DNA of 37,803 bases from Schoenoplectus triqueter (Eukaryota; Streptophyta; Magnoliopsida; Poales; Cyperaceae). Both the position numbers and the translations under genes were made by a program. Under the pieces are notes generated by a model. The model had not been told where the DNA came from and did not search any database. It saw only the letters and a program-made list of their open reading frames with translations. This document shows, in pieces, positions 7,801 to 37,803 of this stretch. The stretch covers positions 1 through 37,803 of the forward strand of contig CAXKVV010001228.1 in the NCBI GenBank assembly GCA_964058805.1, in the 5' to 3' direction. Numbering within the stretch: the stretch's first letter is position 1; each line of letters opens with the position of its first letter.

Positions 7801-10777
7801 AGTCGAACAGTGGAGCAAAAATATGAGCTGATATTGAAAGAACAAAGGCCAAAGATGGTTTTTATGTATCAGCACACGCATCAGAATCACATGCGGAGAG
7901 GCCATATTTCTGACCTCATTATTTATTTTGGAGTATATACCATCCTCTCACAGTCTCACGTGCCTCGGCTCTATGGCCTCATTATTTATTTTGGAGTATA
8001 TACCATCCTCTCACAGTCTCACGTGCCTCGGCTCGTATTTCTTTAAATTTAAAAATTGATTTAAAAGATACGTGAATCTTTAATTTTGTATTAAAATTTA
8101 TAATGATCATTGAAAGTATAAATTTCAGATTTCGAGGTCTGTTAAAAGTATGAATCTCAATGTAAAATCAATGACTCACGCACCTTTCGAATTAATTTTT
8201 GAGTTCAAAAGAGTGCGAACGTACTCCGCTCCCTCGGCTCTCACTTTGTGTTGTGTGCTCAATTGATTTATATATGGGAACAGATGGGTTATCTTGATAA
8301 TTTTAATAATAAAATTTTAAATAAATATTAAAAAATTATAAATATATTTTTCTACTTATAAATTGATAGTGATGTGAATTTTATGTAATTTTATTATTAC
8401 TTACTAGTCTATCAAATATTATTAAAATATTATGTACTTTCTAACGGTTCTAATTTAATGATCTTTGATGGATTAACAAACGATAATGAAATTGCATGAA
8501 ATTTGAATCACCATCAATCTATAAGTAGAAAATATATCTATAAAATTTTATTTTAAAATTATTTCGTATTTATTTTAAGATCTCTTATTGATATTGTCAA
8601 AATAACCATTGTCAAGTGATACCTTCCCTAATTATATAATACCCCTATTATTATTCATTTGTTAGCGTGTGTGTGCGTGTGTGACCGCTGATCATTGAGT
8701 GGGTTGCATCTAATGAGAATATAACAACATAGTACACGTTACTGATTGCTCCATCATCACATGGTCTTTTAAAAATGGATGTCGCCCTTTTACTGTGTGA
8801 ATTTACATGACTTGCATGTAATGGCTTTCAGTTAGGGACATGAACAATGATCATGCTTGTGGCATTTGCAATTGTCATTGATCAAGTTTATGAAGTATTT
8901 GACAGGAAGGTTCATGGCATTCTATTATACAGTGTTTCAGGCTTTTGATGTCTGTGGAGTGTGGACCCCACTCTTACCATATAATACCAAAAGGGATTAT
9001 GGGATAAAAAAGTTAAAAACCACATCACCCTTTCACAATTGGAGAGGATCCAAATAGTTTTTTCGTGTGGGAAACAAGATTTTACATGAACTTTTTATTG
9101 GTTAAAGATTTTACATCACCTTACTTGCTGTCCACCTAACATTCAGCTATTTGTTTTTTTTTTATTGTTACTTTCACATCATATTTAATTTTCTTTTTTA
9201 TTTTGCTTCTCTGAATCCAAATTTCATGTGGCCTATATAGACAGCTATCGCATGCAGTGCCATACAGTCTAAAATAATTATTTAAGATAATAAATAATTA
9301 ATTGTGGTGTAAATAAAAATGTCGTGGGAAACAAATGCCAACAACACTCCATACTTTTTTGGCATTTAGTACTAATTATTTTCAATTTTTAAGTGACTTG
9401 TGATGTTGGTTTTACACTTTTACTAATGTAGCAGTTCCCTTAACTATTACAGTTGAAACTAATTAGCCTACCTATTCATTCCTGGTTTCATTGATGAGTT
9501 TCATGCATAGTTACATGACATCATTAAAACTGTTTCTGTTAGTAGGGATTATTTGGAAGTTAGAATATTTATGAAATAATAATAACAACAATAACAATAA
9601 TAAAATTGATGTGATATTTGACAAATTCTTTAGGCATAAAATTACTAATTTTCATTACGCACTTAAATATTATTATTATTATAAAATATAAATGAGGGTA
9701 TGATTTTTAGTGAAGTACAAAACTTTCTGTGTTTCATGTTCATATTTTGAATTTAAAAGTTCAAATGATCGATTCGAACTGTTGAATATAATTTTCACAT
9801 TAAAATATCTTTGCATATCAAATTATATATATATTTTTTAAAGCTTTTACTATTTTCTATATGAATTCAAAATTTATTGATCTAACGATATTTGCATCAT
9901 TTAGTACTAATGATTTCTCACTCATCTTAAAAATAATAAAAATTTTAAAAATATATATAATTTATTTTTTAAAAATATTTCAGTATAAAAATTATATTTA
10001 ACAATTTAAATCGAATATTTAAAATTTTAAATTTTAAATACAAACGCAACACAAAAAAATTTATACTTCATAAAGCAGGAAACCTCATTCATATAATATG
10101 TATATTAAAAATTTAATAGTACGACATCCCTTGTTCTTAAATGCTACTTTTTCTCTTTACCAGAAGCAAGAACAGAACATGTCAGCACATATGTACCTCA
10201 AACAAAGTTCTCCCAAAATTATACCATGAAATTTGGAATAGCAAAAAGAAGAAGAGATACATACCTCAAATCTGACAATGGTAAGCACATCGTTTCGCGT
10301 CGAACTCGTTCTCGCATTCGGCACATCGGCATTGATCATGCAAAGCAGCGACTCGTATTGATTCAAGCTCAGTGAATCCCCTACAAACATCACTTTCTTC
10401 CCACTCCATTTCTTCAATAGATCCACGCCATCAAATCTTCAAACAAAAAGCATGTAAAAAAGAAAAAAAAATTAAAAGAAAATTTTGTAATTTTGTAATT
10501 TTGTACATATCTTGATGTATTTGTATACTAACTTTGGTAGCTCACATCCACTTGGCTTCCATTTGTATATGAGATACAATTTGTCGGTTCGGCCGTACTT
10601 GATACAATCGAACTCGGGACGAATGAAGGGGCAACTACTTGAATCATAGAGCGGGTATGACGGATCAATTACCCAACTTCCAGTAAACAAGTTGCAACCA
10701 GCGGTTGCATCTGCACTTGCACGCAAAACAGAGTATGAGAAGGAGAGAAGAAGCAGAGACCCAAAACCAATGCCCAT
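4868..10777 (-). CDS. TBL43-like: TRICHOME BIREFRINGENCE-LIKE protein (TBL41-43 type), probable polysaccharide O-acetyltransferase
   Basis: Five coding exons join in frame with GT-AG introns: 10777-10533, 10436-10265, 6659-6484, 6396-6241 and 5168-4868 (1,050 nt, 349 residues). Visible features in order are an N-terminal hydrophobic signal or anchor (residues 4-20), then the PMR5N-type block starting CNLFTGSWV and ending ELPKFDG. The catalytic GDS follows at 101-103 ([12 protein letters not shown]), then IFNTWHWW, then the DxxH motif at D324/H327 (DCTHWCLAG) near the C-terminus. In known TBL/PMR5 proteins (DUF231, GDSL-like) the GDS Ser and DxxH residues catalyse acetyl transfer to xylan, mannan or pectin in the Golgi. 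The ending [16 protein letters not shown] is what I recall for the TBL41-43 group; acceptor polysaccharide and exact orthologue are not decidable here. The start has a good context (AAG before ATGG) and precedes the signal. Length is normal for the family. Intron 2 is unusually long (3,605 bp). Confidence 0.93.
5169..6240 (-). other. TBL43-like: TBL intron 4 (1,072 bp)
   Basis: The donor GTAAGT and acceptor ATTCAG flank it. It is AT-rich. Inside, at about 5830-5893, is an imperfect 27-bp inverted repeat whose loop-proximal ends are GACC and GGTC. It may be a small foldback insertion. No coding sequence was seen in it. Confidence 0.7.
7402..7735. mobile_element. Candidate hAT-type MITE in TBL intron 2
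   Basis: The left end reads TAGTAACAAGTTGATGATTC and the reverse complement of the right end TAGTAATAACAGTGGCGAAT. They share TAGTAA-AA and a following GAATTATTCG-type subterminal sequence (repeated ATTCG words), as seen in many plant hAT derivatives. The flanks (CCATACA and CCATATA) resemble each other but are offset, so the 8-bp target duplication is not clean. Confidence 0.4.
7914..8034 (+). repeat. 58-bp direct tandem duplication
   Basis: The string starting CCTCATTATTTATTTTGGAG and ending GTGCCTCGGCTC occurs at 7914-7971 and again, identically, at 7977-8034. The copies are separated by TATGG, giving a period of 63 bp. Identity between the copies suggests a recent event. It sits in TBL intron 2. 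Confidence 0.9.
8286..8607. repeat. Foldback (MITE-like) element of about 320 bp
   Basis: The left half starts GGGTTATCTTGATAATTTTA and contains TTTCTACTTATAAATTGATAG. The right half, reverse-complemented, starts GGTTATTTTGACAATATCA and contains TTTTCTACTTATAGATTGATG. The inverted arms are roughly 120-130 bases with many small differences. A clear target-site duplication was not found. Confidence 0.55.
9691..10089. repeat. Foldback (MITE-like) repeat, copy B
   Basis: The inverted arms start AATGAGGGTATG on the left and, reverse-complemented, AATGAGGTTTCC on the right. Both continue into a GAAGTA string and then a TTTAAAAGTTCAAATGATCG-type block. It belongs to the same family as the copy at 3.27-3.67 kb. 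It lies near the 5' end of TBL intron 2. Confidence 0.5.
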
Positions 10778-15475: not shown

Positions 15476-16051
15476 ATGCACCATTGGATTCTTCTTATTG
15501 TCAATTTTCCGAAATAAATTATCTATATCATGGATCCTCTTAATGACAACTCTATGTGGCCACTCACAATTCAGAATGCATTAAATATGTAAGTTTCTTT
15601 ATTTAATATTTTATCTCAATAATATATAATGCATCTTTATAACATATTTATTGACAAAGGGTGAGAAGAAGAAAACCAAATTTACCTATACAAGTATCAG
15701 CATACGTAACTCACTTATCTTTTAATTTAAAATCAAAATTTATTGTGCAAGAATAGATAATTATTGTGTAATTCTTAGTGTGCAAGACAATCGGGTGGTT
15801 CGGAGTGCGCTTATTATGTCATGAAATTAATACATGACATAATCGGCACTTATCACACCGAGGATACTTTGCCTGAGGTATTAAAAAATAACATAGATCC
15901 ATTTATTATATTATTGCATTACTTTATATTTTCATGAAAAAATAATGTTAAGTCTTTTCTTTTTATTTTGTAATGCTAATGCTAATTATAATCAAAGTGA
16001 TATCGATGAGGTCAAAAAGATGATAATTTTATATTACATTGAAAATATTTG
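15476..16051 (+). pseudogene. Ulp1-like (C48) cysteine protease remnant inside the CACTA-like element
   Basis: Four exon-like pieces read as the C-terminal half of a transposon-borne Ulp1 protease. Piece 1 (15476-15588) gives MHHWILLIVNFPK, a stop (TAA at 15515), then IIYIMDPLNDN. Piece 2 is 15660-15705. Piece 3 (15779 to about 15877) gives CARQSGGSECAYYVMKLIHD. Piece 4 (about 15990-16051) gives SDIDEVKKM. The His of HHW and the Cys of SEC occupy the catalytic positions of the family, with D-P-L after them as usual. GT-AG junctions join pieces 1 to 3 in frame, apart from the in-frame stop. Ulp1 domains are known passengers of plant CACTA and Mutator elements. The gene is broken, with no N-terminal part visible. 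Confidence 0.7.
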
Positions 16052-16709
16052 ACCGTTATTATTTGGATGTTATGTATTTGATTACATTACTTATTTTGAT
16101 ATATTTAAATTGTGATATGTATTATGCATGTGTAATTTATATTTGTTTATGATATATGCATGTGTCATGCATATATGTGTTATTTATATACATGTGTGAT
16201 GCATATATTTACATTTGAGGCAGAATGAGATTAGTTACAAAATCGCTAGCATGCATATGTGATGTATATGTTAATTGTTTGTGATGTATGTGTGTGTGAT
16301 GTCATATATAATTTAATTATTTATGATATATGCATGTGTGATGCATAATTATAATCAAAGTGATATCGATGAGGTCAAAAAGATGATAATTTTATATTAC
16401 ATTGAAAATATTTGACCGTTATTATTTGGATGTTATGTATTTGATTACATTACTTATTTTGATATATTTAAATTGTGATATGTATTATGCATGTGTAATT
16501 TATATTTGTTTATGATATATGCATGTGTCATGCATATATGTGTTATTTATATACATGTGTGATGCATATATTTACATTTGAGGCAGAACGAGATTAGTTA
16601 CAAAATCGCTAGCATGCATATGTGATGTATATGTTAATTGTTTGTGATGTATGTGTGTGTGATGTCATATATAATTTAATTATTTATGATATATGCATGT
16701 GTGATGCAT
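15984..16709 (+). repeat. 363-bp tandem duplication
   Basis: Copies 15984-16346 and 16347-16709 start AATTATAATCAAAGTGATAT and end GATGCAT. The only difference spotted is T versus C in GGCAGAATG / GGCAGAACG. The unit includes the last Ulp1-like piece and a run of ATGCATGTGTGATG words. The near-identity indicates a late event in the element's history. Confidence 0.92.
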
Positions 16710-17121
16710 ATGTATAAATTAATTTGTGAAATATATATACATGTGTTGCATATATGAATTTTAATTGTTTGTATTATGATATAAAAAAATTATGTATATA
16801 TATGCTAGCAATATGAGCTAGCAACCGAGAAATAGACATTTTTAAAAAAATACATTTAACAACGGTTCTAACAGAAAATCATTGCAGAATATTATTAATC
16901 ATTAAACAAAAATAACATTTTATAATGGTTCTAACGTATTAACCGTTGCAAAATAACTATTTAACAATGGTTCACATTGTAAAACCGTTGTTAATCATGT
17001 GTTTAGCAACGGTTGTAGTATGGAAACCGTTGCTAAAATCCTATTTAACAACGGTTTCAGCTTAGCAACCGTTGTGAAAGCCTACTTCCTATGTTGTTGT
17101 TAATCCGTTTTGACTCACGTA

Positions 17122-19985: not shown

Positions 19986-21227
19986 TTATTTTGACGTGTC
20001 TATTGCCCTCAATTCTTTTGTTTCGCAACGAAAATGTGTTTTCATATTTCTTTCTGCAAGCTTATATTTTCGCATTTCAAATTCAATAAAAAAATTGCTG
20101 AATTAAATAGGTACGAAGCTCAATACTTTTGTTTAATGCAGATTGATTTTTATTTTAATAATTATGCATTTATGCTTCTTTTTTATATTAGCCGATATAC
20201 CCTAAATACCCAACTATTATATTGAAATCCCCTTGGCAATATTAATAATATTTGTAAATTTTAAAATCCAAGAACTGAAACGTGATATCTTTATTTATAA
20301 AAATTAAGTGTTTTTTTAGTTTGTTGTTTATAGTTCTTTATTGTTCAAATTGCACAAGCTTTAATACACAATAAATCTACAGAAATCAACAATATTTTTT
20401 TTGAACTTGTTTTTCATCATTGCGAAGTTGTGGTTTGATTTAAAATGGTTTTCAAAATTCATGTTAGTTAGTTCACTGTTAAGGACCCCAACTAAATATA
20501 ATTATTAGTATAGTTCTAGTACGAAGAACAAAAATAGTTTGTCTTTTTCTTATTAATTCTGTTTAACATGGGTAATTTATGCTGCCGAAAATTGTTGTTT
20601 TTTCCACCAAAAAAAATAGTTTTATTTACTAGACTGTTACTTTTTCTTCTATTGGTAATTTGAGCACATATTTCATTGACCTAATCTTATCAAATCTATT
20701 TTTTATTCAGCAAGCTTTTATCTATTTTAAATTTGAGGCACATATTTCATGTACCCAAGCTTTTATCTATTTTAAATTTGAGGCACATATTTCATGTACC
20801 CAAGCTTTTATCTTGGATGCTATTATTTGGACCCCCTGTTCGGCAAGTTCACACTTTCAGAATTCCAAGTACAATCTTATATATAATTTATCCCATCTAA
20901 GAAAATACAACAGAAAATCTGGATAATTTGCTTTATCCTAGAGAATGTTATGGGTAAAAAAGTGACACCTTCAAATCTCTGTTGCCCAATATGTGTTACA
21001 ATCCTGTTGCAGGACATTGATACGGGGGTCCACCAAGTTTTAAGGGGCCCCCATGCACTGATCAGTGTCTCATCTGTTAACACTTAACAGAGAGCGCTTA
21101 CCTTCCATTCCACTAAAATTGAGATCCTTATGTTGAAAATGACCTATTTGTTATACATGCAAAGCAAAAGATATTAAATGGATTAATTTGTCACATATAT
21201 GATACATCATATATACTTGATTGAATG
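19986..21227. other. Spacer, no gene seen
   Basis: AT-rich DNA with one 45-bp tandem repeat, listed separately. Open frames here are short and unrecognised. Confidence 0.5.
20711..20813 (+). repeat. 45-bp tandem repeat, 2.3 copies
   Basis: CAAGCTTTTATCTATTTTAA starts units at 20711 and 20756 and a partial third unit at 20801. The first two copies look identical. A degenerate piece (GAGCACATATTTCATTGACC) lies just upstream. Confidence 0.9.
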
Positions 21228-23428: not shown

Positions 23429-23811
23429 CAGTTTTTAGTAATAATATTTATTATTAAATTAATATTATTAAAAATAAGAGTGAGAACCGTAAAATTTTAA
23501 ATATACGAAAGGCAATTTTCTTGGGATATTCATCACAAAAAAAGATTATAAATGTTATGATCCAATCAATAAAAAATTTTATATTTCAAGTGGTGTGTTT
23601 CATTATTTTTATAAAACGCACCACTGGCAGTGGCGCATTTGCTTTTTATATATACAAAACACGCAACGCCTCTCCATCTCACTTGCGTGGGGTTTGGACG
23701 AAACACGCCACTGGCAGTGGCGCGCTGTCATTCGTATATTTGAAATTTTACGATTCTCACTCTTATTTTTAATAATATTAATTTAATAATAATTATTATT
23801 AATAAAAACTG
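23429..23811. mobile_element. Mutator-like MITE with 81-bp terminal inverted repeats and 9-bp target duplication
   Basis: The left arm (23429-23509, starting CAGTTTTTAGTAATAAT) is the near reverse complement of the right arm (23731-23811, ending ATTATTAATAAAAACTG). The identical 9-mer TCATTTGAG lies at 23420-23428 and 23812-23820. Long TIRs with a 9-bp duplication indicate a MULE derivative. The interior holds two palindromes built on GCCACTGGCAGTGGC (about 23618-23636 and 23706-23724). No transposase is encoded. Confidence 0.85.
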
Positions 23812-23866
23812 TCATTTGAGATATTAATTTAATAATAATTATTATTAATAAAAACTGTCATTTGAG
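23775..23866 (+). repeat. 46-bp tandem duplication of the MULE end plus target site
   Basis: The last 37 bases of the right TIR together with the 9-bp target duplicate occur twice in succession (23775-23820 and 23821-23866), apparently identical. As a result TCATTTGAG is present three times around the element. Confidence 0.93.
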
Positions 23867-24457
23867 ATTTGGAGTTCATATGAAGGTCTGAGCTGATTGT
23901 GTTTGGTCTTTAGAGAAGTGTTGGCAAGTCAGATGTGTCATTGCCTGGCTGATCAATTCAAATCTATCAGTACGCCAGTTGATACTTGACTGCATACTCA
24001 ATCTTGGAAAGCATATATGGTGTATGCACCTGGATTATATACCTCTTTATAATTATCCTTGTGTTAAAGATTGCTCGCATTTAAAACTTGTTTTATAGAT
24101 TGCTCGCATTTAAAATTTGAAATGTATTTGTTTTAAACATATTAAATGTCTACTTATTTTGCACCAATATAAATAGCTTTCTAAATATGAAATGCATTAT
24201 AGATGGATGAATTATCCATCAACCAGGAATCTAATATTTCAAGTATTATATCTCTGGCAATCTAATTAGTAAATGGATGAATTATCAGCAAAGCGTATAG
24301 AGTTTCCATTTTCCAACAGTACAGTGAACGGAAGGGAAAAATTACTAAAAATACTGAATTGCAATTTGCAATATTAGTTAATTATTTTTTGTCAATGAAG
24401 ACTTCAAAATATTTTGGATAATTTTAACAATTATCATTACTTAATTGCAGTTGAGTG
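23867..24457. other. Spacer, no gene seen
   Basis: AT-rich DNA with a small repeat (AGATTGCTCGCATTTAAAA occurs at about 24068 and again, with a change, at about 24098). Nothing coding is supported. Confidence 0.5.
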
Positions 24458-25255
24458 TAGTGTTTACCAAACGGGCGGGTATGGGCGGGCACGGGTACAA
24501 GTTGCCCGGGTCACGGGTTGTCCGGGCACGGGTTGGACGGGTTAAACGGGACGGATTGAGATGGGTTGAGTTTGGGGTGATGATCCTAACACACCCTTTG
24601 ACCCATCGGGTTGGGCGGGACGGGTTGGGACGGAGCGGATACGGGCGAACACAGGTTTATTATTATTTTTAAATCCGAAAATTCTCAAATAACTCCGTAT
24701 AATTCCAAAAAATTTAAAAAATCAGAAAATTTGCAAAATAATGTCATGTTTAATTTTTATTCAAAATAATTTATTTTTTAATTAAAATTCTAAAATTCAA
24801 AAGTAATGAAAAAATCACAAAAAAAATTTCATGTGTTTGCCAAAAAAATCACAAGAAATCGAAATAATTGTAAAAAAAATGAACAGTTTTTTTTATATAA
24901 CTTGATTTTTTTTAATTATTTGTAAGTAAAATATTATCTTTGAAAGATAATAAAAGAAATAAATAAATAAATAAAAGAATCTTAGAAAAGAAAATAAACA
25001 CTAGTATTTGTTAAAAATATAAGTCACCCTCCTCTTTTATTCCGGGCGGGTGGAGCGGGTCACGGGACGGGTTAAGAAAGGGTTGAAAAGGGGCGAATTA
25101 TCACGGATGAAATTTTGAAGGGCGATCCAAACCCTATATAAAACCCGCCCTTAGTACGAGCACGGACGGTCACGGATTGAGTATAGAGGCGGGTTTGGAC
25201 GGGCAACGAAGGCGCGCGGATCAAATTTATCCATATGAGTTTTATCAAAACACTA
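24458..25255. mobile_element. Candidate hAT-type element with GC-rich subterminal regions
   Basis: The left end TAGTGTTTACCAAACGGG and the reverse-complemented right end TAGTGTTTTGATAAAAC share TAGTGTTT. The subterminal 150-200 bases are rich in ACGGG/GCGGG words, in sharp contrast to the A/T-rich core, a pattern seen in plant hAT derivatives. The flanks GTTGAGTG and GTTAGTGC are similar but not identical, so the target duplication is decayed or the ends are off by a base. The open frames at 24445-24672 and 25072-25266 are by-products of the GC-rich ends. Confidence 0.55.
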
Positions 25256-26500: not shown

Positions 26501-29500
26501 CTACACTATCTCCCAATCTGAATCAGCAGAGTTTGCATTTCGCTTGTCTGCTACTTCACTCAACTGGGATTTTATCGAGTGTCGCAACCTTGAGATAAAC
26601 TTGGCTGCCAATTTGTTCTGCAGGGAGTAAATTTCCCAATGTCAAGACATTACTTTGGGATATATAATGTTAGAAACAAATACTAAATTATCATATTTTG
26701 AACAGTGTCATTACCTTGGAAGACTTCTTGGATTCATGATAGGAAACCAAGTCGAGATCATAGTCGATATCATCTTCCCAGTCATCCCTTAGATCTATAT
26801 CCTCAAAACCTCCTACAACATAAAAACACAAAAATGAAATAAAAAATACAACTTTATATTACTTACATGGATATGGATGGATACATGCATAAGAGACTCA
26901 GATGCCAGCATTCAAAATTTGAATTTAGCCATTCCATGTTACTGGCGCATGAGCCAATTTAGCTTCCCATCTGGTATCAAGGGTGTCTCACTGTTTATTT
27001 TCTTGACTTAAACTCTTTTGCAGTCAACAAAGTCTCAAAAAGACGTAAAATGAGATGAATTCAACTCTTCTACAGAAGTTCACAAGAGCAAAAGACCGAT
27101 ATAAATTAAGGGAAACAAAACACATACCAAAATGAAGTGGCCTAGAATAGCTGACTAAATTGTCAGCCTCATCTGTGGTTTCATCAGTCTTGTCAATGGG
27201 ATCCAGTTTGGAGTTTCTATCATGAGATTTGCTAGCCTCATCTGTGGTTTCATTTGTCTTGTCAATGGGATCCACTTCGGAGTTTCTATCATCAGTTTTA
27301 CTAACTTCCACCAATGCACTTTGATCCACTGAAAAATAATATTTGCAGGGAGTTTTAAAAAAATATATAGCAATCCAGTAATGAAGTCAAACAACAGATG
27401 AATTCCAACATTCTTTGCTCTTCATGTCTTAAAAGATATAGACCAAACAAAAATTAAAGTTGCATATTAATGCAAAAACCATTAAAAGTAGTGGAAGAGA
27501 CAGATAAGTACCATGTGCTTCACTTGGCACAACATCAACTCGTGAAGACAGCATATTAGATGTCGTGTCATCTAGTAAGGTTTCAGGTAAAAACTCATCA
27601 GCTGCAATTAGTGGAACAGCATGCAGATCAGATGCTTTATTTCATGTAAAATCACCTTGTGAAGATAACATTAGATTTCATGCTGTCTCACAGGGTTTCT
27701 GATAGGAGGAGCTCCTTAGCAAGATTTGTTTTAATCAGGGAATGTGAATCTTGACAATACCCAATCAATAGTATCAAATTGAAGGTAATTTATCATGGAT
27801 TCATTCTGTAACAGATAAATGGAAATGACTATTTATGACCTGTGAAAAAAAAAATTCTATTAGATTTATCCATTCTGTTTTAGTGAGGTATGAGCCAGTT
27901 TAGATTCCTATTGGTTGCAAAGGGAACTCACTATTTAGTCCCTTGACTAAATCCTATTGGACTCAATATATACTCAGAACACATAAAATTCCATGAAATA
28001 ATAAATACACCGCAGAAGTTAACTGCACCAAAAGACTATCAAATAAGGGACAAAAACATACGAAATGCGCCTATCTCTGATAAGGGGACAAAATTGTCAG
28101 CTTCGGCTGTGATGATTTTATCAGCCTTGCCAATGGAAACCACACTAGAGCTGTCACCATCAGATTCACTATCTTGTGAAGACGTAATACCAGATGTCTT
28201 GCTATTTTGTACAGCTTGTGACAAAAGAACCTCATTAGCTGCAATTTGTTCCAAAACAAAATACATTTATCGTATATTAATTAATTAATTCTGTGCTCTC
28301 TGGTTTTTAATATATCTGAAAATATCTCAAGCACAAAACGTACGAAAAGATATAGGCTGGAATGGAAGAAGACTGTGTTTACTATATGTTCCATACGATT
28401 TGAGTTCTCCTAGTGAAGATGGCATATAAGCTGCCATGTTATCTTCTAGGTCCTTCAGTTGAACTGCAATTTGTTTCGAAAAATTGATAATTAAAGAGAA
28501 GTTATAAATTCAGGAACACCTAGCATTTCGAGTCTTGTAGCATAAAAGCCTTAATTGGGAACACTGTGCTTACCAAATTCTTCAACTCTTGTACTACAAT
28601 CTCCCAAGTTATTTTCTAGGGCCTCTGATGAAGCCATCTCAGTAGCTGCAATTTGGTTTGAAGAATTGACAAAATATAAACACAAAGAACACTTGTCAAT
28701 TTAGCTACCCTAGCAGTTCTGGTGTTGTCATGTAACAGATTTAATGGGGAACACTGTGTTTACCATAATCTTCATTTGATTTGAGTTCTCCTTGTGGCAA
28801 TGCCATATAATCTCCCGCATCATATAATAGGGAACCTAAAAAAAAATCTAGGTCACTAGCTGCAATTTGGTTCAAAAAATTGATTAAAAAAATTATCAAT
28901 TCAGGTACCCTAGTGTATTGTAGTATGACAGCTTTAACTGGGGAACACTGTATTTACCATATTCTTCATTTGACTTGAGTTCTCCTAGTGAAGATGGCAT
29001 AAAAACTGTTGTGTAATAAGTTCTCGTGTAATTTTCCATGGCCCCTAGTGGATCTACAATTTGGTACCAAAAATTGATAATTAAAACCTATACATTTAGG
29101 TACCTAGCAGTTCTAGTATTGTGGTATAAAAGCCTTAACTGGGGAACACTGTGCTTACCATATTCTTCATTTGGTTTGAGTTCTCCTAGAGAAGATGGCA
29201 TATAAGCTCTCATGTAATTTTCTAGTTCCCCTAGAAAAGCAACCTGAGTAACTGCAATTTGGTTTCAAAAATTGATAAAATAAAGAAAATTTATCAATTC
29301 AGGTACCCTGGCGGCCCTAGTATGGTAGTATAACAGCCTTAATTGTCCCTAAACGGAGTATAGAATCAAAATGGCGGTGGCAATCAATTACCTGACCAAA
29401 TAGGTCCAGCAGTCCATCTCAATCCAATGGCTTAGTGGGTTGGGGCCGGGTTTGATATCCACTGACCCATTTTTTGTCAGGTTGGGTCAGGTCAGATCAT

Positions 29501-30961
29501 GACATGTTTAACTGAACAAGGCCCTCTTTATTTATTTTTTTATTTTAAAATATAATATAACAGCTGAAATTTGGATTGAGGGATCACACTATTGAGATTT
29601 TGGACCAAACTTCAGGCAAGCATGGTCCAAAGCGCAACTATCATCACAACTAGTTCATTTTAATTGATAAGCGATAGAATCAAATAAATTCATAGTGAAT
29701 CTTAGACCAAAACTGTTGGATCAGATTGACCCATCAGGGGTCTGACATGTGTCAGGTCGGCTACCCAAAGAAGGTTATGATCCAGTTCAGGTCTGACCCA
29801 TTCAAGTAAAATAAAAAGATATTAGCGATCACAACTGATATTTTGCCACACCTAATTTTAGTTGTAAAAGAAGTTTTTAAAATTCCTAACAAAATAGAGG
29901 TTTGCATCCCAGGTACAATGCTTCAATTTCAGAAAAGGTAGGTTTCTATCCACGGTAAGGATTGCTATATATAACTACAGTATATTAGGCACCAGGGTCA
30001 CCATTTTTGAGAAAATCTCTTATTATGCCTCATTTATCTCAATTTTACAATTTTTCTGAAAGAAAAATTTATGTTATTAGTAATCAATTGAATCCAAATT
30101 TACCCCAAATCTTAGAATTTTGTTTTATCTTTTGGATAACATGTAAAATTTGTCAAGTTAATATAAAATTTCTTGGGTAATAGCTCCATTTTTATCTGAT
30201 TTTTTTCATGTACTATTTTTTTGCCTGAATTAAACCCCAGTAATGGCAGTTGAGTGATACCACAATATAACTTGTACAACAACCACAATCACAGAGAAGC
30301 TGTGATATGAAAATTAATAAAAACATCCTTTATGAATAGAAAAAAAAATTGTAATTTAGTACCTAATGGGGGCTTTACTTCAGATTCTTGGTCGGAGGGT
30401 TTATTTACATTGGTAGATTTTGAATCATCAATCGGAACTCCAGATATTGCCAAGTCATCAATCTCCTCATCAGTTTCAGACTCAGTATTTCCATCAAGAT
30501 CGTCTTCACTTTCATTGAGCTCCTCTTCAGGCTCAGAATTTTCAGAAGTGATCTGCACTGGCTCTACATTGACTGGATTGATATCCAAGCCCAACCAATC
30601 AACTGACACCTCATCAGCAAACTTTTTGGCTAAATTAACGCACTTGCCGGGTATCTATCGACAAAAGGAGAAACAAAATAGATTACTTCATACTCCCACA
30701 CGTCTTTTTCTATCAGTAACACATGAAACCAGAAACGAAAACTAAAAAAAAAAAGAATAGCACAATTACCTTGGCAAGTTTAGAGGGCTCACATGCTTTG
30801 CCTAGATCATCATACAGCTGTCCCAATCCATCGAATGAGAAATTCAAATCCATTAGAGAAAGTGTATCTGTGAGGTTTTCATCCACCTTCTGTGCTAGTT
30901 CACAAGCTCTTTGAGAGATCTGCGCCAGTTTCTGGCGACTCTCTTCAAAATTCTTCTGCAT
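26501..30961 (-). CDS. Acidic protein with tandem exon cassettes and C-terminal WEIV motif; possible ATG8-interacting (ATI3-like) protein
   Basis: Twelve coding exons join in one frame: 30961-30770, 30654-30363, 29251-29159, 29053-28958, 28859-28764, 28645-28574, 28463-28383, 28238-28062, 27601-27512, 27328-27128, 26812-26715, 26617-26501 (1,605 nt, 534 residues). A 5'UTR exon probably ends at 31660. Residues 1-64 are helical and coiled-coil-like (MQKNFEESRQKLAQISQRAC). Residues 65-90 hold a tryptophan block (VSVDWLGLD), followed by an acidic E/D/S stretch. Residues 162-308 are five related cassettes with the core PSSLGELKSNEEY. Residues 308-463 carry a second repeat type (ETTDEADNLV, TAEADNFV). 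Residues 464-496 are very acidic (DDWEDDIDYD). The last exon is basic and helical and ends SDWEIV-stop. No enzyme domain was seen. A terminal [WFY]xx[LIV] preceded by Asp is an ATG8-interacting motif, as described for dicot ATI3 proteins; that identity is a hypothesis. Confidence 0.85.
27631..27720 (-). pseudogene. Fossil exon, decayed duplicate of the exon at 27512-27601
   Basis: In the intron just upstream (gene sense) of the exon 27601-27512, the minus strand reads GAGCTCCTCCTATCAGAAAC... and aligns with that exon around GAAACC, ATCTAAT and TCTTCAC. The copy has in-frame stops and no good splice sites, so it appears to be dead. It shows that this part of the gene was also duplicated. Confidence 0.55.
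28383..29345 (-). repeat. Tandem array of five exon-plus-intron cassettes (about 182-214 bp each)
   Basis: The acceptor sites lie at 29251, 29053, 28859, 28645 and 28463. Each unit has an acceptor in the context AAATTG(C/T)AG, an exon of 72-96 nt, a donor after ...GAATATG-like sequence, and an intron containing GGGGAACACTGT (on the plus strand) plus an AAAATTGAT string. All five exons begin and end in phase 1, so loss or gain of a unit keeps the frame. Introns are as similar between units as exons are. The array breaks off at about 29346. Confidence 0.88.
29365..29865. mobile_element. Possible hAT-like insertion in intron after the exon at 30363-30654
   Basis: The sequence between TGGCGGTGGCAATCAATTACC and TTTTGCCACACCTAA has GC-richer ends with GGGTTGGGTCAGGTC and TGACCCAT words in both orientations. 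The two limits are inverted relatives (GGTGGCAA / GTGTGGCAA). No 8-bp target duplication could be matched. Confidence 0.35.
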
Positions 30962-32213: not shown

Positions 32214-35200
32214 TGTGTATTTATGAGGCCAAAAATATTATAATAGGCATAATTTGGAGTAGTTACGTTAATTTTCATGAAATTATATGTAGTTATGCGG
32301 CCAAATAAATTGAAAAACACAAAAAACTTGTTTAAACAGCTGTTTTTAATGCATCTTACTTATGTTTTCTGCAAAATTAGTGTCATAGAATGTTTTATAT
32401 TGAAGTATTAATTGGATATTCTTTTAATAGGTATAATTAGGAGTAAATATATTAGTTTTCACGAAAAAAATGAGTATTTAGGATGCAACAAATGTTGAAA
32501 ATGTTAAACAATTTATTTAAACGGCAGTTTCTAATGCATCATACCATAATTCTTCACAAAATTAGTGTCGTGGAATATTCATTTCGAAGTATTAATCAGA
32601 AATCCTTATAATAGACATAATGATGAGTAACTATATCAATTTGCACAAAATTATGAGTAGTTATGCGGCCAGAACTTTTGAAAAACTCAAACAACTTGTT
32701 TAAACTGTTGTTTTTAATGTATCCTACTTATGTTTTGTGCAAAATCAGTGTGGTAGAATTTTCATATCGAAGTGTTAATGGGATAATCTTTTAATAGGCA
32801 TAATTAGGAGTAATTATATTAATATTCACGAAATTATGTGCAGTTTTGCGGCCAGCAATGTTGAAAAATTCAAACTACTTTTTAAATAGCAGTTTCTAAT
32901 GCATCTTACAAATGATTTGAGAAAAAATATTGCCGCGGAATATTCATATCGAGGTGTTAATTGAACCGTCCAATAATAGGATGAATTAGTAGTGATTATA
33001 TCAATTTGCACCAAATTATATGTAGTTATGCCGCCAAATTTTTTGAAAAAGTCAAACAACTTGTTTAAACAGCAGTTTTTATTACTTATGTTTTGTACCA
33101 AATTACTGTTGTAGAATATTCATGTCGTTGTGTTAATTAAATAATCTTATATTAGGTATAATTTGGAGTAATTATATTAATTTTCACGAAATTATGTGTT
33201 TTTAGGCGTCCAGAAATTTTAAAAACCTTAAATAACTCGTTTAAACAGGTGTTTTTAAAACTAATGTTTTCTGCAAAATTAGTGTTGTAGAATATTTAAT
33301 ATTGAAGTATTAACTGAATAATATTCTAACAGGTATAATAAGGAGTAAATATATTAGTTTTCGTGAAATTATGTGTATTTATTAGGCAATAATTGTAGAA
33401 AATCCTAAATAACTTGTTTAAACAGCAGTTTCTAATGCATCTTACTATTATTGTGCAAGAAAAACAGTGTTGTAGGATATTCATTTCGGAGTGTTAATTA
33501 GACAATATTATAATAGGCATAATGAGGAGTTATTATATCAATTTGCACGAAATTATGTGTAGATATGCGGCCAAAAAATTATAAAGAGTCAAACAACTTG
33601 TTTTAACTGTTGTTTTTCAAGAATCCTATTTATTTTTTGTGCAATATTAGTGTCGTAACATGTTCATATCGAAGTGTTAATTGGATAATCTTTTGATAGG
33701 CATAATTAGGATTAATTATATTAATTTTCACGAAATTATGCGTAGTTATGCGGCCAAAAGTTTAAAAAGAGTCAAACAACTTGTTTTAACTGCTGTTTTT
33801 CAAGGATCCTACTTATGTTTTGTGCAATATTAGTGTCGTAACATGTTCATATTGAAATGTTAACTGGATAATCTTTTTATAGGCATAATTAGGATTAATT
33901 ATATATTAATTTGCACGAAATTATGCATAGTTATGCGGCAAAAAATTTAGAAAGAGCCAAACAACTTGTTTTAAGTGCTGTTTTTCAAGAATCCTACTTA
34001 TGTTTTGTGCAATATTAGTGTCGTAACATGTTCATATCGAAGTGTTAATTGGAGAATCTTTTAATACGTATAGATAGGGGTAATTATGTTATTTTTCACG
34101 AAATTATTTGTAGTTATGAGGCCAAAAATATTTAAAAACTCAAACAACTTATTTTAAATAGCAGTTTCTAATGCATCTTACTTATGTTTTTTGAAACTTT
34201 AGCGTCGTAGCATATTCATATCAAAGTGTTAATTGGACAATATTATAATAGGCATAATTAGGAGTAATTACGTTAATTTGCAGGAAATTATATGTAGTTA
34301 TGCGGCCAAACAAATTGAAAAACTCAAAAAACTTGTTTAAACAGCTGTTTTTAATGCACCTTACTTATGTTTTCTGCTAAATTAGTGTTGTAGAATATTT
34401 AACACTGAAGTATTAATTGAATAATCTCCTAATAGGTATAATTAGGAGTAAATATATTAGTTTTTATGAAATTATGTGTATCTATTAGGCAATAATTGTA
34501 GAAAATCCTAAACAACTCGTTTAAACAGCAGTTTCTAATGCATCATACTATTATTGTACAAAAAAAATAGTGTTCTAGGATATTCATTTTGGAGTGTTAA
34601 TTGGACAATCTTATAATAGGCATAATGGGGAGTAATTATATCAATTTGCACGAAATTATGTGTAGTTATGCGGCCAAAAATTTAAAAAGAGTCAAACAAG
34701 TTGTTTTAACTGCTGTTTTTCAAGAATCCTATTTATATTTTGTGCAATATTAGTGTCGTAACATGTTCATATCGAAGTGCTAATTGGATAATCTTTTGAT
34801 AGGCATAATTAGGATTAATTATATAAATTTGCACGAAATTATGTGTAGTTATGCGGCCAACAAATTTTAAAGAGTCAAACAACTTGTTTTGACTGCTGTT
34901 TTTCAAGAATCCTATTTATATTTTGTACAATATTAGTATCGTAACATGTTCACATCGAAGTGTTAATTGGATAATCTTTTGATAGGCATCATTAGGATTA
35001 ATTATATTAATTTGCACGAAATTATACGTAGTTATGCGGGCCAAAAATTTAAAAATTGTCAAACAACTTGTTTTAACTGCTGTTTTTCAAGGATCCTACT
35101 TATGTTTTGTGCAATGGTAGTGTCGTAACATGTTCATATTGAAGTGTTAACTGGATAATCTTTCTATAGGCATAATTAGGATTAATTATATCAATTTGCA

Positions 35201-37803
35201 CGAAATTATGCGTAGTTATGCGGCCAAAAATTTAGAAAGAGCCAAACAACTTGTTTTAACTGTTGTTTTTCAAGAATCCTACTTATGTTTTGTGCAATGT
35301 TAGTGTCGTAACATGTTCATATCGAAGCGTTAATTGGAGAATCTTTTAATACGTATAGTTAGGGGTGGTTATATTATTTTTCACGAAATTATGTGTATTT
35401 ATGAGGCCAAAAATATTTAAAAACTCAAACAACTTATTTTAAATAGCAGTTTCTAATGCATCTTACTTATGTTTTTTTGAAACTTTAGCGTCGTAGCATA
35501 TTCATATCAAAGTGTTAATTGGAAATATTATAATAGGCATAATTTGGAGTAATTACGTTAATTTTCATGAAATTATATGTAGTTATGCGGCCAAACAAAT
35601 TGAAAAACACAAAAAACTTGTTTAAACAGCTGTTTTTAATGCATCTTACTTATGTTTTCTGCAAAATTAGTGTCATAGAATGTTTTATATTGAAGTATTA
35701 ATTGGATATTCTTTTAATAGGTATAATTAGGAGTAAATATATTAGTTTTCACGAAAAAAATGAGTATTTAGGATGCAACAAATGTTGAAAATGTTAAACA
35801 ATTTATTTAAACGGCAGTTTCTAATGCATCATACCATAATTCTTCACAAAATTAGTGTCGTGGAATATTCATTTCGAAGTATTAATCAGAAATCCTTATA
35901 ATAGACATAATGATGAGTAACTATATCAATTTGCACAAAATTATGAGTAGTTATGCGGCCAGAACTTTTGAAAAACTCAAACAACTTGTTTAAACTGTTG
36001 TTTTTAATGTATCCTACTTATGTTTTGTGCAAAATCAGTGTGGTAGAATTTTCATATCGAAGTGTTAATGGGATAATCTTTTAATAGGCATAATTAGGAG
36101 TAATTATATTAATATTCACGAAATTATGTGCAGTTTTGCGGCCAGCAATGTTGAAAAATTCAAACTACTTTATAAATAGCAGTTTCTAATGCATCTTACA
36201 AATGATTTGAGAAAAAATATTGCCGCGGAATATTCATATCGAGGTGTTAATTGAACCGTCCAATAATAGGATGAATTAGTAGTGATTATATCAATTTGCA
36301 CCAAATTATATGTAGTTATGCCGCCAAATTTTTTGAAAAAGTCAAACAACTTGTTTAAACAGCAGTTTTTATTACTTATGTTTTGTACCAAATTACTGTT
36401 GTAGAATATTCATGTCGTTGTGTTAATTAAACAATCTTATATTAGGTATAATTTGGAGTAATTATATTAATTTTCACGAAATTATGTGTTTTTAGGCGTC
36501 CAGAAATTTTAAAAACCTTAAATAACTCGTTTAAACAGGTGTTTTTAAAACTAATGTTTTCTGCAAAATTAGTGTTGTAGAATATTTAATATTGAAGTAT
36601 TAACTGAATAATATTCTAACAGGTATAATAAGGAGTAAATATATTAGTTTTCGTGAAATTATGTGTATTTATTAGGCAATAATTGTAGAAAATCCTAAAT
36701 AACTTGTTTAAACAGCAGTTTCTAATGCATCTTACTATTATTGTGCAAGAAAAACAGTGTTGTAGGATATTCATTTCGGAGTGTTAATTAGACAATATTA
36801 TAATAGGCATAATGAGGAGTTATTATATCAATTTGCACGAAATTATGTGTAGATATGCGGCCAAAAAATTATAAAGAGTCAAACAACTTGTTTTAACTGC
36901 TGTTTTTCAAGAATCCTATTTATTTTTTGTGCAATATTAGTGTCGTAACATGTTCATATCGAAGTGTTAATTGGATAATCTTTTGATAGGCATAATTAGG
37001 ATTAATTATATTAATTTTCACGAAATTATGCGTAGTTATGCGGCCAAAAGTTTAAAAAGAGTCAAACAACTTGTTTTAACTGCTGTTTTTCAAGGATCCT
37101 ACTTATGTTTTGTGCAATATTAGTGTCGTAACATGTTCATATTGAAGTGTTAACTGGATAATCTTTTTATAGGCATAATTAGGATTAATTATATATTAAT
37201 TTGCACGAAATTATGCATAGTTATGCGGCAAAAAATTTAGAAAGAGCCAAACAACTTGTTTTAAGTGCTGTTTTTCAAGAATCCTACTTATGTTTTGTGC
37301 AATATTAGTGTCGTAACATGTTCATATCGAAGTGTTAATTGGAGAATCTTTTAATACGTATAGATAGGGGTAATTATGTTATTTTTCACGAAATTATTTG
37401 TAGTTATGAGGCCAAAAATATTTAAAAACTCAAACAACTTATTTTAAATAGCAGTTTCTAATGCATCTTACTTATGTTTTTTGAAACTTTAGCGTCGTAG
37501 CATATTCATATCAAAGTGTTAATTGGACAATATTATAATAGGCATAATTAGGAGTAATTACGTTAATTTGCAGGAAATTATATGTAGTTATGCGGCCAAA
37601 CAAATTGAAAAACTCAAAAAACTTGTTTAAACAGCTGTTTTTAATGCACCTTACTTATGTTTTCTGCTAAATTAGTGTTGTAGAATATTTAACACTGAAG
37701 TATTAATTGAATAATCTCCTAATAGGTATAATTAGGAGTAAATATATTAGTTTTTATGAAATTATGTGTATCTATTAGGCAATAATTGTAGAAAATCCTA
37801 AAC
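32214..37803. repeat. Satellite array: ~183-bp monomers in an 18-mer higher-order repeat of 3,290 bp
   Basis: Monomers share landmarks in order: GTTATGCGGCCAAA, TCAAACAACTTGTTT, GCTGTTTTT, TACTTATGTTTTGTGCAA, TTAGTGTCGTA, TTCATATCGAAGTGTTAATTGG, ATAGGCATAATTAGGA, CACGAAATTATG. Landmark spacing runs from 176 to 185 bp. The GCGGCC landmark at 32297 recurs with the same neighbours at 35587, and TGAGTATTTAGGATGCAAC at 32471 recurs at 35761. The offset is 3,290 bp throughout, enclosing 18 monomers. The array continues past the window end. The two visible higher-order copies differ at only about six positions noticed over about 2.3 kb. It encodes nothing; frames at 32826-33101 and 36170-36391 are the same satellite segment read twice. 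Confidence 0.95.

Follow-up and report, generated by a model that had tools for sequence, protein, structure and literature searches.

Tandem, frame-neutral exon-plus-intron cassettes in the variable middle part of a sedge gene

How can the middle of a coding gene change in length by whole exons while its reading frame is kept? The question is raised by a locus of Schoenoplectus triqueter (Cyperaceae) in which consecutive exons look like copies of one exon-plus-intron unit. The window analysed here (37,803 nucleotides) is one entire contig (C1199) of an assembly of 82 Mb in 2086 contigs. On its minus strand lies a gene modelled with 12 coding exons (30961 to 26501), with GT-AG ends at every internal intron and a stop-free frame for a protein of 534 residues, many of them acidic as judged by eye. 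An upstream non-coding first exon is likely. Searches of the assembly at the DNA and protein levels, with the best candidates scored, found no second copy of the gene. Very probably, this is a lone-copy gene in the assembly, with conserved ends and, between them, a loosely constrained linker that grows and shrinks as small exon cassettes are duplicated, decay and, probably, fuse. The features on which this reading is built are collected in Table 1.

Table 1. Features of the cassette gene, in positions of the window.
Feature	Position	Strand	Basis
Coding span of the gene model	26501..30961	-	Open frame over 12 exons, introns all GT-AG, both ends shared with the Carex proteins
First coding exon, conserved N-terminus	30770..30961	-	Gene model, Carex alignment
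Second coding exon, remainder of the conserved N-terminal part, phase 1 at its end	30363..30654	-	Gene model, Carex alignment
Incomplete cassette intron before cassette 1, limited to the 3' part of the unit	29252..29345	-	Unit alignment
Cassette exon 1, 93 nt, phase 1-1	29159..29251	-	Gene model, unit alignment
Cassette intron between cassette exons 1 and 2	29054..29158	-	Unit alignment
Cassette exon 2, 96 nt, phase 1-1, verbatim PSSLGELKSNEEY	28958..29053	-	Gene model, unit alignment
Cassette intron between cassette exons 2 and 3	28860..28957	-	Unit alignment
Cassette exon 3, 96 nt, phase 1-1	28764..28859	-	Gene model, unit alignment
Cassette intron between cassette exons 3 and 4	28646..28763	-	Unit alignment
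Cassette exon 4, 72 nt, phase 1-1, without the repeat core	28574..28645	-	Gene model, unit alignment
Cassette intron between cassette exons 4 and 5	28464..28573	-	Unit alignment
Cassette exon 5, 81 nt, phase 1-1, core present, 5' part shorter	28383..28463	-	Gene model, unit alignment
177-nt exon, phase 1-1, with a diverged cassette copy in its 5' part and a 3' part like Carex type B	28062..28238	-	Unit profile, B-type protein match
Probable dead cassette copy, intronic, some 120 bp before the 90-nt exon	27629..27738	-	Profile, pairwise test
90-nt exon, phase 1-1, diverged cassette copy	27512..27601	-	Unit and exon-only profiles, Carex match p 0.002
201-nt exon, phase 1-1, B type	27128..27328	-	Gene model, Carex comparison
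Final pair of coding exons, 26812-26715 and 26617-26501, with the conserved C-terminus	26501..26812	-	Gene model, Carex alignment

Relatives of the protein were found in two species only: FCM35_KLT05647 from Carex littledalei (434 aa) and LOC144568536 from Carex rostrata (418 aa). The search covered 5.8 billion proteins, of which the 7994 candidates sharing the most words were scored; another search comprised 39 candidates. Identity in the alignment is 55% with the C. littledalei protein and 53% with that of C. rostrata. Both have the first two and the last three coding exons in common with the Schoenoplectus gene, with 12 residues extra in S. triqueter in the first two exons, and the shared N- and C-terminal parts make it likely that both are orthologues. 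The protein ends in SDWEIV (window 26501-26521), matched by SDWEIL in both Carex proteins, an ending which we take to resemble the W-x-x-[ILV] motif of autophagy adaptors (AIM). A structure predicted for a Carex protein from a six-row alignment, in which the counterpart of the first coding exon is helical at very low confidence, has a mean pLDDT of 34; it neither supports nor excludes a disordered, spacer-like linker. Known families were of little help: the single Pfam match, Cac1_C, lies below threshold (13.8 bits versus a cut-off of 24.3) and was set aside, the one match in a sequence search of the PDB (E 0.5) was disregarded, and Rfam at gathering scores gave no match.

Between the conserved ends, five consecutive exons repeat a single exon-plus-intron unit in tandem, as the original prediction had proposed from the letters of the contig. 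Local alignment of the four adjacent unit pairs gave scores of 480, 436, 333 and 346, well above the maxima reached in 300 dinucleotide shuffles per pair (167, 185, 201 and 185). The copies are adjacent, with no unrelated exon between them, and the predicted spacings were recovered exactly, at 198 bp (29251-29053), 194 bp (29053-28859), 214 bp (28859-28645) and 182 bp (28645-28463). The start of the first unit, 29345, was carried over from that prediction, and a profile that includes it matches there with an envelope out to 29352. All five exons are indeed phase 1-1, with lengths that are multiples of three and with GT-AG introns; the run of such exons is in fact one of eight (8/8, 29251 to 27128) rather than of five. 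The repeat core had been described correctly in part: PSSLGELKSNEEY occurs verbatim in one of the five exons (28958-29053) and altered in three, and the 72-nt exon, said to have lost part of it, lacks it. The 81-nt exon, of which the same had been said, keeps the core as PSSLGELKSYGTY; it is its 5' part that is short, by a 15-nt gap in common with the second cassette exon.

The coding frame is free of stops in all five cassette exons, and the other two frames of each contain one to four. Open frames alone are nevertheless weak evidence, because all five copies stayed stop-free with a probability of 0.04-0.16 when their neutral drift from a common ancestor was roughly simulated. The alignment gaps respect the frame. 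Gap blocks in the exons measure 15, 3, 15 and 21 nt (two of them overlapping), all four being multiples of three, compared with one of eight in the introns (1, 7, 2, 1, 13, 14, 8 and 9 nt, partly overlapping, and leaving out a 17-nt block that corresponds to the truncated start of the first unit). This pattern bears on the proposal that the cassette exons are dead or were never spliced, so that the model would merely join decayed duplicates within one long intron. Ratios of dN/dS near or above 1, the absence of the cassettes from the annotated Carex proteins and one further intronic copy that does appear dead could be read in that way. However, GT-AG sites, phase and open frame are kept in five of five cassettes, and gaps come in multiples of three in the exons and mostly not in the introns, which makes dead exons very unlikely.

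The cassette introns are 98-118 nt long, have GT-AG ends and present no visible barrier to serial splicing. Before the acceptor they can form a small hairpin, AATTGATAA / TTATCAATT (window 28464-29345), in which the intron 28763-28646 has substitutions at both positions of one pair and several pairs are broken elsewhere. As a consensus, this fold is weak, with a covariation term of +0.8 (unfavourable) and a compensatory change in one of 12 pairs. These properties matter for the view that the five cassettes are mutually exclusive or optional exons, each transcript carrying some of them and the gene giving several isoforms. Such a use would suit five homologous, tandem, frame-neutral exons, any subset of which preserves the frame, and introns conserved beyond the exons are expected if they carry splicing signals; tandem exon duplication is also tied to mutually exclusive splicing in the available parts of two papers (PMC9013439, PMC6071210). 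With short GT-AG introns in which nothing visible opposes serial splicing, and with so weak a hairpin as the sole predicted intron structure, we regard optional exons as unlikely.

A further departure from the original prediction concerns the divergence of the units. Introns had been said to match as well as exons do; they match better, at 75-88% identity versus 57-83%, and exon identity is the lower in nine of ten unit pairs. The mean p-distance between units is 0.196 for introns and 0.323 for exons, a difference of 0.127 (bootstrap 95% CI 0.054-0.203). The excess is located in the 5' half of the exon, where 25 of 35 columns are variable compared with 41 of 102 in the introns (p 0.0017), the core half being no more variable than the introns (21 of 46 columns, p 0.59). 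Between three, four and five units, respectively, dN/dS is 1.00, 1.03 and 1.56 for the whole exon, 1.69, 1.25 and 1.63 for the 5' half and 0.54, 0.83 and 1.62 for the core, the values for the halves coming from few sites. Codons for these ratios were taken from the DNA alignment; in the protein alignment, the 72-nt exon appeared misaligned. The reading frame is kept in the cassette exons, and the amino acids, to judge from these comparisons, seem little constrained.

It could be argued instead that amino-acid change has been favoured, so that the cassette exons, mainly in their 5' halves, have outpaced their own introns. The gap in p-distance, the variable columns of the 5' half and its dN/dS of 1.25-1.69 all point in this direction, but the core half does not follow, with its variability like that of the introns and its dN/dS of 0.54 to 1.62. 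Moreover, synonymous divergence also exceeds that of the introns (pS 0.27 versus 0.17 for four units, 0.23 versus 0.20 for five), which speaks against amino-acid selection as the sole cause since such selection would not produce it. The 5' half also adjoins indels, so misalignment would inflate its apparent divergence, and intron homogenisation or constraint accounts equally well for the gap. Diversifying selection as the driver is thus quite improbable. Indel-side misalignment, diversifying selection, splicing constraint on the introns and conversion confined to the introns could each contribute to the difference. A mosaic test for exchange between units gave one of 30 comparisons under p 0.1 (0.086) and therefore no support for it.

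The cassettes are not limited to the five-unit block. A profile of the five units, run across the whole window, also matched 28256-28173, the 5' part of the 177-nt exon (27.9 bits, E 2.7e-8), and the 90-nt exon at 27610-27513 (21.8 bits, E 2e-6). In 60 shuffled regions of 8 kb, the best scores were 11.9 bits for the unit profile, which found some match in 33 of the 60, and 10.6 bits for a profile of exons only; the latter gave 15.2 bits to the 90-nt exon and 8.8 bits to the 177-nt exon. For the 90-nt exon, the link to the cassettes is drawn from these DNA profiles, its protein-level match to the cassette exons being not significant (5 comparisons, p 0.10 to 0.43). An intronic match at 27731-27629 (7.4 bits, E 0.05) was equalled in two of the 60 shuffled regions; in one of six pairwise tests, each with 1000 shuffles, it aligned to the 90-nt exon at p 0.008, and it is probably a dead cassette. 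Several weaker likenesses among the pairwise tests were not relied upon: the 201-nt exon with its neighbouring intron (p 0.038), two cassette introns with the intron that follows cassette 5 (p 0.20 and 0.05), and one cassette intron with two further introns (p 0.69 and 0.65).

As to the age of the array, the units are 57-88% identical overall, and their longest exact matches measure 12-27 bp. If the introns changed at 6.5e-9 per site per year, a rate for grasses that may not fit this plant, their distances between units, 0.14-0.31, would make the duplications roughly 11-24 million years old. The youngest-looking change in the gene, apparently younger than the cassettes, is instead a 69-bp in-frame tandem duplication within the 201-nt exon (about 27165-27303), whose copies agree at 62 of 69 positions. 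Coding minisatellites and other repeat genes with variable unit number carry tandem in-frame units in one protein. The present array is like them in this respect, but its unit is an exon plus an intron and its copies are too diverged for easy exchange. Near-identical units, as in an unstable coding minisatellite, were not found here, and without any exact run longer than 27 bp the present array offers little for unequal crossing-over to act on. The expectation that protein length would vary between individuals thus found no support. An array that is unstable today, with unit number varying among individuals by unequal crossing-over in the manner of a coding minisatellite, would be in keeping with tandem, frame-neutral units and with the differing lengths of the two Carex proteins and the Schoenoplectus protein; given the divergence of the units and a youngest repeat that lies outside them, we consider it extremely unlikely. 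The five-unit block looks old rather than currently unstable.

The comparison with Carex, made with annotated proteins and not with Carex DNA, places this turnover between genera. Neither annotated protein has an aligned counterpart of the five units; each has differently composed repeats. The middle of the C. littledalei protein can be segmented, in our own scheme, into three A-B repeat pairs, in which A resembles the 90-nt exon and B the 201-nt exon. In these comparisons, for which p 0.002 is the floor of 500 shuffles, the third A has its best counterpart in the 90-nt exon (score 79, p 0.002), the third B matches the 201-nt exon (score 127, p 0.002) and the first B the 177-nt exon (score 49, p 0.002). 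The scheme is firm for B, the three units of which score 74-80 with one another (p 0.002), and loose for A because the A units are weakly alike (p 0.012, 0.072 and 0.082) and the second is also like the B units (p 0.002-0.044). Compared as proteins, the cassette exons gave no significant match to the first or third A unit (p 0.12 to 0.98 in 10 comparisons); one of them reached p 0.008 with the second, among 91 comparisons, and was not counted. With three A-B pairs in C. littledalei, the Schoenoplectus middle differs in having five cassettes, a possibly fused A-B exon and one A-B pair. The 177-nt exon would be this fused exon, possibly two exons joined through a deletion. Since the middle repeats differ in Carex, the linker between the conserved ends is made up differently in this plant and in Carex, and turnover of cassettes is the most likely way in which the middle was reshaped between genera. 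Of the predicted variation in length, the part concerning species is thus in line with the data, as it is chiefly in the middle, in its length and its content, that the Carex proteins depart from this one (434 and 418 versus 534 aa).

A bolder version of events, which we hold to be as improbable as optional exons, is that the gene is limited to sedges, perhaps with rushes, that its linker is continually rebuilt, and that the exons diversify by selection faster than their own introns, which splicing signals or gene conversion hold. We prefer the reading of conserved ends and a loosely constrained linker. The linker would change in length through tandem duplication, decay and probable fusion of small phase 1-1 exon-intron cassettes, the duplications presumably arising from unequal exchange. 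Every cassette is bounded after the first base of a codon, so that, when both breakpoints of a duplication or deletion fall in introns, the protein gains or loses 24-32 residues and the frame is unchanged; gain and loss of units are thus frame-neutral, as originally proposed. All units would be spliced together into the mRNA, and the cassettes would serve as length or spacing elements, perhaps with short binding motifs, rather than as a folded domain. The little amino-acid constraint seen in dN/dS favours a linker that is spacer-like and probably disordered.

Other repeats lie elsewhere on the contig. A satellite array with periods of about 183 and 368 bp occupies 32234-37803 and reaches the contig end; within it, 33000-33740 and 36290-37030 are 100% identical, and the satellite is also present on contig C79 (2 of 705 candidates scored). 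Satellite periods of 155, 181 and 364 in Juncus and of 29-31 in Carex are given in the available part of one study (PMC9526063). The periods at the contig end are near those of Juncus JR2 and JR3 and unlike those of Carex, a likeness of periods and not of sequence. A direct tandem duplication of 363 bp (15979-16717) has 98% matches, and shorter ones with 100% matches are found at 7914-8034 (63 bp), 20711-20813 (45 bp) and 23775-23868 (46 bp). Finally, GC-rich repeats resembling CGGG/GGCGGG were seen by eye around an AT-rich core at 24466-25220, in AT-rich surroundings; this segment is perhaps a transposable element.

The locus adds a new case to tandem exon duplication, a known and common process, which in its full-exon form is said to have been treated by Letunic et al. 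2002 and by Kondrashov and Koonin 2001. In the accessible text on Exonize (PMC12343006), full-exon duplication is put at about 4-7% of vertebrate genes, with degenerate exons detected as well. In an excerpt of another study, on Arabidopsis, rice and maize, units of tandem repeats are involved in 38-43% of the spliced-out-domain patterns (PMC2674458). The gene resembles the cases in the Exonize text in that whole, adjacent exons were duplicated in more than one round and that one intron holds what is probably a degenerate copy, and is unlike them in being a plant gene of no known function whose introns are retained and better conserved than its exons. It shares tandem, homologous, frame-compatible exons with mutually exclusive clusters of the Dscam type (PMC6071210, PMC1397879, PMC1431710); in such clusters exactly one copy goes into each transcript, whereas the present cassettes show no sign of such a choice. 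No paper on the gene was found in the literature searched, by searches not aimed at the gene itself. What the locus offers is a clear plant example of cassette gain and decay at several stages within one gene: beside five recognisable copies, it has two that are diverged, one that is probably dead and an exon that may be a fusion. With its two Carex relatives, it would allow a test of frame-safe length change in lineage-restricted genes, and of why introns, once duplicated, can remain more similar to each other than the intervening exons do.
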